Below, piece after piece: positions 37,775 through 40,485 of a stretch of 64,000 bases of DNA (the first letter of the stretch is position 1; every line of letters begins with the position of its first letter). Location of the stretch: the NCBI GenBank assembly GCA_022846635.1, contig AP025685.1:1-64000 (forward strand). The letters are read 5' to 3'. A model generated the notes under the pieces. The model saw only the letters and a list, made by a program, of their open reading frames with translations. It was not told where the DNA came from and did no database searches. Made by a program: the position numbers and the translations under genes. This DNA is from Salmonella enterica subsp. enterica serovar Choleraesuis. Lineage in GTDB: Bacteria; Pseudomonadota; Gammaproteobacteria; Enterobacterales; Enterobacteriaceae.

Positions 37775-39766
37775 TCATGGCTTGCAAGAGATGTAACCCT
37801 GCCGCTTATGTCTTCGTGCATGTGGGAAAGCTAAGCGAATGCGTCCCGATTTTACCAACGGAACAATTTGCTTCTCACGTAGGTTTTGAGGAGTTCTGGC
37901 CATTAGTTTTGAAATGATACTTAGTGGCATGTAGTGACCTTCGCATAACGTGAGGATCATCTCGTCCATCACCTCATTTGAAAGCCTTTTTTTCTCCCTA
38001 GCTAACGCTGAAGCTTCTTCCAGCTGCTGCCTGAATAGAGGAGAGAGATAATCAAGGTTATCAATATAAGGATGTGGGAGCTTTGCAGTAATAAACCTGC
38101 CATACGCATCTCTGCTGTAATCATCACTGGAGTGCAATTCGCTATCCGTTATCATTTCATCGTTATCCGTGATCAAATGAGTGCTATCCGTGATGATTTG
38201 CTCTCCAGACAGGGTAGGTATGTTTGTTGATAACGGATTCACTCCAAAGACTTCTTCTGGAGATGGTAAGTCTTGTCCTGGCAACGTGTAAGATTTATTC
38301 CTTCTCTCACCATGAGCAACTAAAAAACCGCTGCTAACCAAGCGGGGAAGGGCTAGAGTTACTTCACGTGAATGTAGGCTAGTCAGTTGGCAGGCGCGTT
38401 CATGATCAACCCATTTTTCAACTGCTGCAGTTATCACAATGCTGCGCTCTAGCTCGCTTAAATGGTCTACCTTGTCTCCAAACGTGGTATGGAGGAGATT
38501 AGCTATCTTTTCCGAAACAAGATTTCCGATGGACAATTCCAAGAGAGTTTGTTCTGGTTCTGTCTTCTCGTACAGTCGCGGCATGCGCCAATTTGCCCAT
38601 TTCCATCCACTAAAAATCTTTGGTATTCCTGATCCTGAACGCTCTCCTGCACCGATAATCAAAAACATTTGGTGCATAAGTCTGTTGCGGCAGTCACTTT
38701 CGTAGCCTTTTATCGCTTGTTCAGGCGGTACTCGCATAAGCCCAGGGTTACGAAAACCAAACAAGTCAGGCCTTTTCACAACCATGATAGAGAGCCGACC
38801 TGTGTAATCGGCATGCACTAGGGTATTTACTAACGCTTCACGTAAAGCTGTGTGAATTTGAGTATCGTCTTGACGAATACCTTCCTTGAGTTCGAAAGGC
38901 ACCTTTAGATCCGCGATAAGTTTCCGGTAGGTTCGTCTGTAGAAGTCAAAGATGTTTCCTGACCAAGTACCATCTGGGCATAATCTGTCGACCCAACGCC
39001 GTTCCGTTCTTGCCTCTGGCCGTTCTTGGTAGTCTACAAAGTAGTTAGGGGCAACGTCTTGTATCGCTTCCCAAGTACCAAACATTAAAATACCTGCCAG
39101 CGTCATACCCTCCAGCCCTGTTTGACGGTCTTTTCTATATCCCCCAATGCTTCGAAGAAAGGCAAAATTATCAAGCTCAAGGGCAGGATGGGTTGGGTTA
39201 GATGCGGAAAGAATATTCCTATAGGCAAGTAAGCTCTCTAAATTAATATCGTTCATGTCGAAATTTTGAACGATACGATTGTCCCTACTTTCTTCAACTT
39301 GTTCAGCCATCATTCTGCGAACTTGTTCTTCTGTACAACGATGATCACCATCATGTACTCGGAACCAAGTCTCAGACATTGGCTGATTATTAAGATAAAC
39401 AGGTTTTTGTTCACGCCTCGCTATTGGTATTTCAATCACGAGTACATCTTTACCCTCAAGGGCAACGGTCTGTACAGATTGATCAGTGAGGAGGTTTACG
39501 TTTACTTTTCTGTTGTTACCAGCCAGATCAAAAAGTTGTTTTTTTACGGTGTTGATATCATTGATTCCAGCAACGAAAAACTCGCCTCGTTTCTCCCTTA
39601 TCCCCAGAACAACATAACCGCCGCGACAGTTTGCCATGGCGCTGTAAGTCGGCCAGAAATCATCAGGCAATTTGCCTTGCCCATCCTTGCCCTGAGCTAA
39701 CTTGAACTCAAGTTCTTCAGATTCGGAGAGTGATCGTAAGTCGGTAAGATCAGAAATCAGGAACAC
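37775..39766 (-). CDS. AlbA_2 / HATPase_c_4 putative regulator of accessory insert
   Basis: A 663-residue protein with GTG start at 39766 preceded by GGAGG. Residues about 14-130 form an AlbA_2 (Schlafen-type, divergent) nucleic-acid-binding domain, including ESEELEFKLA and MANCRGGYVVLGIRE. Residues about 300-420 are a GHKL/HATPase_c_4 region with ALREALVNTLVHADY (the N-box) and GERSGSGIPKI. Winged-helix segments follow, and a further helix-turn-helix-like region lies near the C-terminus. Near 521-542 a seven-residue repeat ITD(S/N)xxx occurs three times, encoded by a 21-bp DNA repeat. It is often annotated as RecG-related, but helicase motifs are absent. It is the only intact gene in the insert. 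Function is unknown; candidate roles are autoregulated transcription factor or defence component. Confidence 0.85.
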   Translation of the reverse strand: MFLISDLTDLRSLSESEELEFKLAQGKDGQGKLPDDFWPTYSAMANCRGGYVVLGIREKRGEFFVAGINDINTVKKQLFDLAGNNRKVNVNLLTDQSVQTVALEGKDVLVIEIPIARREQKPVYLNNQPMSETWFRVHDGDHRCTEEQVRRMMAEQVEESRDNRIVQNFDMNDINLESLLAYRNILSASNPTHPALELDNFAFLRSIGGYRKDRQTGLEGMTLAGILMFGTWEAIQDVAPNYFVDYQERPEARTERRWVDRLCPDGTWSGNIFDFYRRTYRKLIADLKVPFELKEGIRQDDTQIHTALREALVNTLVHADYTGRLSIMVVKRPDLFGFRNPGLMRVPPEQAIKGYESDCRNRLMHQMFLIIGAGERSGSGIPKIFSGWKWANWRMPRLYEKTEPEQTLLELSIGNLVSEKIANLLHTTFGDKVDHLSELERSIVITAAVEKWVDHERACQLTSLHSREVTLALPRLVSSGFLVAHGERRNKSYTLPGQDLPSPEEVFGVNPLSTNIPTLSGEQIITDSTHLITDNDEMITDSELHSSDDYSRDAYGRFITAKLPHPYIDNLDYLSPLFRQQLEEASALAREKKRLSNEVMDEMILTLCEGHYMPLSIISKLMARTPQNLREKQIVPLVKSGRIRLAFPHARRHKRQGYISCKP
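38142..38199. repeat. Three 21-bp repeats inside the AlbA_2 gene
   Basis: TATCCG occurs at 38143, 38164 and 38185, exactly 21 bp apart, within longer similar units such as GTTATCCGTGATCAAATG. In protein the units read ITDSTHL, ITDNDEM and ITDSELH. The spacing of two DNA helical turns and seven codons fits both a DNA-level and a peptide-level repeat. Confidence 0.85.
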
Positions 39767-39907
39767 CGTTCCTCCATGGAAAACCTATGGGTATATTGCT
39801 CATATCTTACCTTGGTTTAAGTGATAAGAAAGGGCATGAAAGTTCAGCAGCTAACAAATTATCAAGTTAACTGTATGTTTAATCAGTGTTTTCGATGTGA
39901 GAGGGCG

Positions 39908-39952
39908 TTATCCGTGATGTAATCCATTATCCGTGATCAAAATGGATAACCG
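39908..39952. promoter_or_regulatory. Operator-like repeats upstream of the AlbA_2 gene
   Basis: TTATCCGTGAT occurs at 39908-39918 and again at 39927-39937, 19 bp apart. The second is followed by GGATAACCG, so TTATCC and GGATAA (39927-39932, 39944-39949) form an inverted repeat. The same 11-bp core occurs in the coding repeats of the gene downstream. The site is about 140-185 bp upstream of the start. A regulatory function is inferred from the repetition and symmetry only. Confidence 0.5.
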
Positions 39953-40039
39953 TTATGTTTAGCTGATCTGCCCCCAGTATTAGATACAACTATCAGTTAG
40001 TAATGTCGGTTTGTTTACCTTCACATTTTTCATTTTGCC

Positions 40040-40250
40040 ACCGTGCTGTAAACTCTGATGGCGTCTGATAATTCAGTGCTGAATGTGGATGACACTCGTT
40101 TTAATCCTGCCGCCAGTCATTAATAACATTCCTGCATGAACGATATCGCTGAACCAGTGCTCATTCAGACATTCATCGCGAAATCGTCCGTTAAAGCTCC
40201 CAATAAATCCGTTCTGCGTTGGCTTGCGGCGCTTAACCTCGGGCACCTCC
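40040..40250 (-). pseudogene. Broken IS407-type orfB transposase C-terminal fragment
   Basis: Directly after the orfA fragment the sequence encodes RKPTQNGFIGSFNGRFRDEC and LNEHWFSDI, the segment around the catalytic Glu of the DDE domain (family consensus NGFIESFNG; here Ser-flanked GSF replaces the ESF glutamate). A frameshift near 40110 then shifts the tail, with LNYQTPSEFTARWQ readable in another frame. The first two thirds of orfB are missing. Confidence 0.85.
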
Positions 40251-40382
40251 ATACTTCTTACGCTAGGTATAAAAAGTGGCATCGGAAATAGCGTGCTTGC
40301 GGCAAAGCTCCCGGGCAGAAACTCCGGCTTCAGCTTCGCGGAGGATACTGATGATCTGTTCGTCGGAAAAACGCTTCTTCAT
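40250..40382 (-). pseudogene. Broken IS407-type orfA transposase fragment
   Basis: From the ATG at 40382 the frame reads MKKRFSDEQIISILREAEAG and continues to ISDATFYT, then TAG replaces the expected Trp codon, followed by RKKYGG and MEVPEV. This is the N-terminal helix-turn-helix part of the small transposase subunit of IS407-group elements (about 87 aa when complete). Premature stop and loss of the C-terminal half make it non-functional. Confidence 0.85.
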
Positions 40383-40485
40383 GGTGATGTCCTCACGTGA
40401 CTAATGAAGACATAACTAACATCACGGTGTATTAATCAATGGGGAGCAGGTCACCGTGATTCTTTATGATAGCTCATGATAACAA

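Follow-up and report, generated by a model that had tools for sequence, protein, structure and literature searches.

A direct-repeat array in the linker-coding DNA of a bacterial Schlafen-type gene of Salmonella enterica serovar Choleraesuis as a candidate self-encoded operator

Introduction

Bacterial Schlafens combine a Schlafen-family RNase with a minimal histidine-kinase module and a winged helix-turn-helix (wHTH) domain, and a role as backup RNase effectors in BREX-type systems has been ascribed to them (PMC12839542). A 2025 preprint cited there deals with anti-phage bacterial Schlafens; in the literature searched, which left out this preprint, no description of repeat arrays in bacterial Schlafen genes was found. 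The gene trlG of Photorhabdus, located in an operon with trlF and trlR, is an expression-regulated growth-arrest gene (PMC7554251). Lambda-type phages carry an origin with iterons in the middle of gene O, where extra iterons add linker residues (PMC7466680, PMC6022878), and RptR of type I restriction-modification (RM) islands represses its own defence operon via three direct repeats (PMC12255303). How toxic immune effectors are silenced is an open question.

Here, we describe an AlbA_2/GHKL/wHTH gene of S. Choleraesuis that harbors a direct-repeat array in the DNA coding for a linker of its product. The gene lies in a stretch of 64,000 nucleotides, which is referred to as the window, and was compared with about 120 relatives from genome contigs, whole genomes sampled at four taxonomic ranks (family, order, class, phylum) and plasmid, phage and E. 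coli collections.

Results and Discussion

The gene is chromosomal and lies between an eptB-like gene and yicC; the features of the locus are collected in Table 1. The predicted domain order of its product is AlbA_2, GHKL ATPase, wHTH, linker and C-terminal wHTH. The Pfam match to PF04326 (E=2.5e-12, 47.8 bits) is above the cut-off of 25.3, and that to PF13749 (HATPase_c_4; E=2.4e-5, 24.7 bits) slightly under the cut-off of 26, with the GHKL module recognized from the latter match together with histidine-kinase folds found by Foldseek. The whole structural model matches 3lmm, 2kyy and human SLFN11/SLFN14, and parts of it match MarR-type and kinase folds. Residues E15, E20 and E58 are invariant in 20/20 homologue sequences. 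Upon alignment to SLFN14, E15 and E20 are identical to E206 and E211, and E58 stands for the aspartate D249; we take these three SLFN14 residues to be active-site residues, with which a PDB title naming E211A agrees. By its predicted architecture the gene product is a bacterial Schlafen, and as such it would act as an RNase. PADLOC returned on the locus weak matches to Argonaute-system profiles alone, which were judged not diagnostic.

Table 1. Features of the S. Choleraesuis locus, in positions of the window
Feature	Position	Strand	Remarks
AlbA_2/GHKL/wHTH gene	37775..39766	-	663 aa, GTG start, bacterial-Schlafen type; ORF, Pfam, Foldseek
SLFN_AlbA_2 domain, residues 15-144	39335..39724	-	PF04326
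GHKL ATPase module (HATPase_c_4), residues 337-402	38561..38758	-	Pfam and Foldseek
First wHTH, MarR-like, approx. residues 419-500	38267..38512	-	AlphaFold model, Foldseek MarR-type matches, AdcR profile match
C-terminal domain, residues 560-660, predicted winged helix	37787..38089	-	AF2; proposed array reader
Recognition helix of C-terminal domain, residues 626-639	37850-37891	-	AF2 layout
Intragenic array, 3 x 21-bp direct repeats, core ATCACGGATA[AG]C	38132..38194	-	codes for ITDSTHL-ITDNDEM-ITDSELH, disordered linker
Unit ITDSTHL	38174-38194	-	
Unit ITDNDEM	38153-38173	-	
Unit ITDSELH	38132-38152	-	
Inverted core copy TGATAACGGAT, linker start, codons N-P-L	38228..38238	+	perfect reverse complement of 38144-38154 (third unit)
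Upstream site 1, ATCACGGATAAC	39907..39918	-	12/12 core match, -152 from start codon
Upstream site 2, ATCACGGATAAT	39926..39937	-	11/12 core match, -171
Upstream inverted degenerate site AAAATGGATAAC	39939..39950	+	9/12
IS3-family transposase remnant	39963..40450	-	18% of query, ~90% identity to IS3-family transposase loci

AlphaFold models of 20 homologues display an ordered N-terminal part and an ordered C-terminal domain with a low-confidence linker in between; in the S. Choleraesuis protein, linker residues 509-549 have a pLDDT of 24-31 and are predicted to be disordered. When folded alone by AF2, the C-terminal domain reaches a mean pLDDT of 94.2 and adopts a winged-helix layout, with helix 626-639 at the position of a recognition helix. 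Structure matches of the isolated domain are weak and of MarR/ArsR type (best E 0.06). The supposition of an earlier note on this DNA that the protein has DNA-reading wHTH domains is probably right.

The three in-gene units follow each other at exactly 21 bp, as that note had stated. It had also noticed a repeat occurring twice upstream, together with GGATAA. Both copies of TTATCCGTGAT are exact (39908-39918 and 39927-39937, with GGATAA at 39944-39949), but they are spaced by 19 bp and not by the 21 bp seen within the gene. The 11-bp core that the note described as common is exact in only one in-gene unit, and the other units carry changes. The inverted copy at the linker start is an addition to the sites listed earlier. 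Allowing for one mismatch at most, TTATCCGTGAT has 4 copies in the 64-kb window against 0.91 expected, all of them at this locus, a number reached in 1/100 shuffles; without mismatch, the 11-mer has 9 copies in the complete genome of 4.26 Mb. A search of this genome for the tandem pair ATMACGGATA-N8-14-ATMACGGATA gave 3 matches, all at this locus, and 0 for the reversed-pattern control. The sites are tied to their own gene, and because no tandem copy exists elsewhere in the genome, a silencing or defence target at another place, one of the options raised in the earlier note, is unlikely. The note was right in that the DNA repeat itself may be the real functional feature. A global regulon was dropped on the same grounds. 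By itself, the S. Choleraesuis array is modest, with 27/36 matches at period 21, just below our census threshold, and it is convincing only together with the arrays of homologues.

Some further features of the locus can be recorded here. The IS3-family remnant starts ~13 bp past the upstream inverted site, just upstream of the operator-like sites. Most ITD-type units (TGATCACGGATAAC) contain GATC, the Dam methylation site, overlapping the proposed core (38132-38194 and the homologues L009, L012 and L113); Dam methylation of these units could tune binding to the core. A sigma-70 promoter scan gave no excess above shuffles, and no tRNA genes were found near the locus within the window.

Nearly all full-length homologues possess such a tandem array, again in this linker and mostly with a period of 21 bp. 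In a census of 85 loci, the period was 21 or 42 bp in 53, 12 bp in 10, 24, 33 or 45 bp in 5 and 17 bp in 1, with 16 loci below threshold. The encoded peptides differ by lineage (LTHNVDN, LTDNTNN, STHNEGN/STYNEQR, SLPHMDS, SSEYLVG, SSGHLVE, DSVHMGV, GSEGLVG, SPDLDNQ and others), and the cores are alike as DNA between lineages (TCCNNNCATTTG, TCCNNNYATAAC, TTAACGCATAAC, ATCACGGATAAC). In the SPDL/SPEL groups, the TCCGGAC core appears to be offset from the reading frame by one base, as judged by eye from the alignment. Copy number differs among relatives, and the units of one array are often identical. Six homologues (L133, L134, L135, L140, L153 and L071) harbor very long perfect 12-bp arrays at the same position (ANAQ repeats, GCACAAGCTAAC/T), which look prone to length variation, and two homologues of more than 900 aa (L125 and L127) have perfect 24-bp arrays (SELSTEQE and QQQPLSTG) in a linker over 200 residues longer.

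In the LTH group (8 species, protein identity 63-89%), 184 amino-acid-invariant columns hold 4- or 6-fold-degenerate residues. Only four of these are codon-invariant, and all four fall into the repeat core, as TTA-ACG and TTA-ACG (P ~2e-8). Codon invariance in the ITD group amounts to 73% for the linker block, compared to about 5-50% for other parts, and extends to the inverted copy AAT-CCG-TTA. The Ser of the motif is encoded by TCC in 13/14 groups (P ~2e-8), with TCC making up 0-46% of the Ser codons in the same genes, and the Leu of the motif by TTG in 10/10 groups considered (P ~1e-7); these P values derive from each gene's own codon usage and are indicative, as the groups were defined by hand from the motif peptides after the data had been seen. 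Inverted copies are found at -26 from the first unit in 9/9 LTH members tested, at -19 in STHN members and, in ITD members, at -47 (S. Choleraesuis and E. coli) and -29 (L012), with L009 being less clear. They are usually the best or second-best inverted match in the gene, and the same scan gave no evident inverted copy in several other groups. Judged by these codon patterns, the repeats appear to be constrained at the nucleotide level, and an inverted DNA copy is not explained by a protein repeat. The view of the repeats as nucleic-acid sites, beyond a mere peptide repeat, is borne out by the homologue comparison.

Two explanations that assign no role to the DNA have to be weighed at this point. 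If the 7-residue repeat itself were functional, as a short binding motif or a spacer, the DNA repeat would be a by-product, and a loose peptide pattern, [SLI]-x-[HYD]-[NLM], is indeed common to the units. Frozen synonymous codons, the TCCGGAC core in what appears to be another reading frame and the non-coding upstream arrays that serve short relatives all disagree with a protein-level function, which we consider highly improbable. A neutral minisatellite, produced by slippage as in-frame 21-bp repeats in a tolerant linker, would agree with the predicted disorder, with the variable copy number and with the identity of units within an array. However, the repeat codons stay the same between species that have diverged in their remaining codons, TCC and TTG turn up again and again in independent arrays contrary to background usage, and arrays inside the gene and upstream of it are mutually exclusive. 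Neutral slippage is thereby very unlikely, and already refuted if the codon constraint is accepted.

Short homologues from Firmicutes and satellite phages (496-516 aa) have no intragenic array, and several of them carry direct repeats just upstream. These include (TTATCTTGAGA)3 in Javan301, (TAATCGTGAGT)n on a Lactobacillus iners plasmid, (TTATCGCACGA)3 at one short homologue, GCGTGTGCGAAT pairs in Javan416 and Javan757, and a 55-bp repeat built of 11-bp elements on a Staphylococcus plasmid. Homologues that lack an intragenic array often have an upstream one, with a period of 11-12 bp. From a fresh test set of 37 IMG/VR loci, fragments, duplicates and loci without upstream sequence were removed; of the rest, 20 loci had an intragenic array only, 6 an upstream array only, 0 both and 5 neither by threshold. 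An upstream array thus accompanied 0/20 loci with an intragenic array versus 6/11 without (Fisher p = 0.0006, for loci that are not fully independent, as the two classes are partly separate subfamilies). The 6 upstream arrays have an 11- or 22-bp period and score 23-24 of 24 matches, the null maxima being 17-19. Upstream arrays are positioned at about -60 to -240 from the start codon. As a general rule, the array is within the gene or upstream, rarely both. Its period is 11 when free of the reading frame and 12 or 21 within it, which fits helical phasing.

The earlier note had proposed self-regulation by looping between promoter and gene body, and suggested checking whether each homologue shows its own repeat in both places. 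In the homologue comparison, exact 9-mers common to the upstream region and the gene were detected for the S. Choleraesuis gene only. As a swap control, 19 motifs were combined with all homologue upstream regions (1748 combinations, mean score 22.6, SD 1.5); the two highest scores were those of S. Choleraesuis (32) and its E. coli relative (30), neither of which was reached in 1500 Markov shuffles, and no further homologue in this control had its own motif upstream. The E. coli relative, L113 of strain ABU 83972, has an ITD array and degenerate upstream sites at -241 (inverted), -214, -193 and -173, with two weaker positions read by eye; the rest of its upstream region can hardly be aligned with that of S. 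Choleraesuis. Among the matches listed, ABU 83972 and similar E. coli are the closest non-identical relatives, with ~76% identity in the eight best-listed records; near matches of L047 and L109 were not found in E. coli. Both site sets are present in these two genes, as looping would demand, but since the other homologues tested lack their own motif upstream, it can apply at most to this small clade. Nearly all tested homologues display the peptide repeat without upstream copies, the very observation named in advance as speaking against looping, and the upstream spacing is irregular, at 19 to 21 bp. Looping therefore fails as a general mechanism and is unlikely overall. Self-recognition remains the best reading.

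The C-terminal helix pattern RxPxxLRxxYL (residues 624-635) tends to vary with the motif: LREKQ is paired with ATCACGGATAAC, LRQNY with TTAACGCATA and LRETY with TTAACGGATAAC. LRKHY occurs in L040, L081 and L124 of the fresh sample, all with GGACAT motifs, at an identity of just 39-51% over the N-terminal 410 residues, and L020, with 77% N-terminal identity to L040, has a different motif nonetheless, along with LRNGY. In a partial Mantel analysis with anchored cores, the helix takes second place among 581 windows (r = 0.374, permutation 0/500) and the C-terminal domain has the highest average score; some core windows that resemble clade markers score similarly, so that phylogeny is not fully controlled. 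An earlier run with unanchored motifs did not single out the helix and was uninformative. The association of motif and recognition helix is suggestive but falls short of being conclusive. In the two-paralogue genomes with readable arrays, the motifs differ between paralogues in 3/3 cases (L087/L103, L090/L104 and L092/L102).

The codon data alone would equally suit a site in the mRNA, where the protein, through AlbA_2 or a wHTH, binds the repeated motif of its own transcript and controls translation or decay. Synonymous freezing is expected for RNA as well as DNA, AlbA_2 proteins are annotated as RNA-binding, the structural matches are Schlafen RNases, and the upstream arrays (about -60 to -240) could fall into a 5' leader. 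On the other hand, an RNA reader could not recognize an inverted copy as the motif, searches for conserved RNA structure (mean z -0.6) and for Rfam matches were negative, periods of 11 and 21 nt correspond to turns of DNA, and the variable residues linked to the motif sit in the wHTH recognition helix. We regard an mRNA site as rather improbable. That the array is read by the C-terminal wHTH, with DNA rather than RNA as ligand, is supported but not proven.

Many homologues are found in or next to type I RM operons; frequently they follow hsdS immediately and have no obvious promoter of their own there. The surroundings of relatives include yicC in Xenorhabdus and dinD/ligB in E. coli. In both L113 (E. 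coli ABU 83972 chromosome) and L110 (of the Streptococcus satellite phage Javan416), a dinD homologue is next to or near the gene, a hint that the dinD-Schlafen pairing recurs. In Salmonella Infantis SARB27, an LTH-type homologue (L109) is placed near eptB, beside tRNA-Pro and RtT RNAs; the family has therefore arrived at no fewer than two enterobacterial locations close to eptB or yicC.

This context bears on the possibility that the repeats are origin iterons, as in the lambda origin within gene O, and that the protein is a replication initiator of mobile elements or descends from one. The layout is the same, in that the presumed binder's gene contains direct repeats in its linker at a distance of about two turns, and homologues do occur in streptococcal satellite phages and on plasmids. 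Yet most full-length homologues are chromosomal, many of them by type I RM genes with no replication genes required, the satellite and Firmicutes arrays lie just upstream of the gene in an operator-like position, and AlbA_2 and GHKL modules are not known parts of initiators. The S. Choleraesuis copy, on the chromosome, is also apart from the replicating phage or plasmid and the partner replication genes that mark an embedded origin. An origin is quite improbable.

The position of the arrays in the linker, the codon constraint, the inverted copies, the exclusive placement, the predicted disorder of the linker next to a well-folded C-terminal wHTH, the helix-motif association, the differences between paralogues and the lack of further tandem sites in the genome were counted in favor of an operator reading, to which we assign a probability of roughly 60%. 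According to this reading, the gene encodes a bacterial-Schlafen effector whose linker-coding DNA is a self-encoded operator array, bound by the protein's own C-terminal wHTH, which represses or holds its own gene. The linker-coding DNA would double as an operator of phased direct repeats, with 21 bp equal to two helical turns and often with one inverted copy at the array start. The own C-terminal wHTH is the most likely binder, and the bound protein might repress or hold the gene by blocking initiation or elongation, so that each gene copy would carry its own lock. A potentially harmful RNase effector would in this way be kept in check, with release presumably occurring on phage infection or stress. 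The degenerate upstream set, 150-240 bp before the start codon in S. Choleraesuis and the E. coli relative, probably reinforces the same autoregulation. Binding, repression, release and RNase activity are steps that we infer. The operator reading is weakened by the equally good fit of an mRNA-level site to the codon data, by a C-terminal domain without a strong solved-structure match, by the shortness of the three-unit S. Choleraesuis array, by a helix association that is second-best only and resembled by clade-marker-like windows, by homologues behind hsdS with no obvious promoter and by groups without evident inverted copies.

A broader interpretation, which we hold at slightly less than even odds, views the linker DNA, throughout a large family of immune RNase-like genes, as a dual-coding, fast-evolving cis address that the C-terminal winged helix of the encoded protein would read. 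Each gene would possess a private lock-and-key, placed inside (12/21 bp, as set by the reading frame) or upstream (11-12 bp) by lineage, that travels on transfer and prevents cross-regulation between paralogues. If the operator reading is right, the lineage-specific heptapeptide repeats are a by-product of the DNA sites. Schlafens cut Ser/Leu tRNAs. Sensing of tRNA depletion via Ser and Leu codons was also considered and dropped, as the ITD units of L012 have no Ser or Leu codon.

Conclusions

Should the operator reading hold, a repressor site in its own coding DNA would let a gene arrive pre-locked after horizontal transfer. The family would then supply dozens of natural, diverged pairs of wHTH and DNA site for learning recognition rules, as well as a rare and large example, beyond phage lambda, of protein coding and operator coding that overlap.

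Comparison with the described systems places the locus as follows. With lambda O it has in common iterons of about two turns within the gene for their reader, which is a proposed one here; a direct-repeat array indeed lies in the gene coding for the presumed binding protein. In contrast, lambda O belongs to a phage replication origin and is an unrelated protein, while the S. Choleraesuis array is chromosomal and probably regulatory. RptR shares the presumed logic of self-repression through three direct repeats, but it is a small separate repressor with 9-bp repeats in the promoter only. The S. Choleraesuis gene is a member of neither system. TrlG has the same two Pfam domains (AlbA_2 and HATPase_c_4), a likeness at the level of domains. 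The bacterial Schlafens share the AlbA_2-GHKL-wHTH order, the positions of a putative acidic triad (E15/E20/E58) and the frequent association with type I RM; to this plan, with its predicted RNase activity, the S. Choleraesuis protein adds a C-terminal wHTH and a linker whose DNA is the array.
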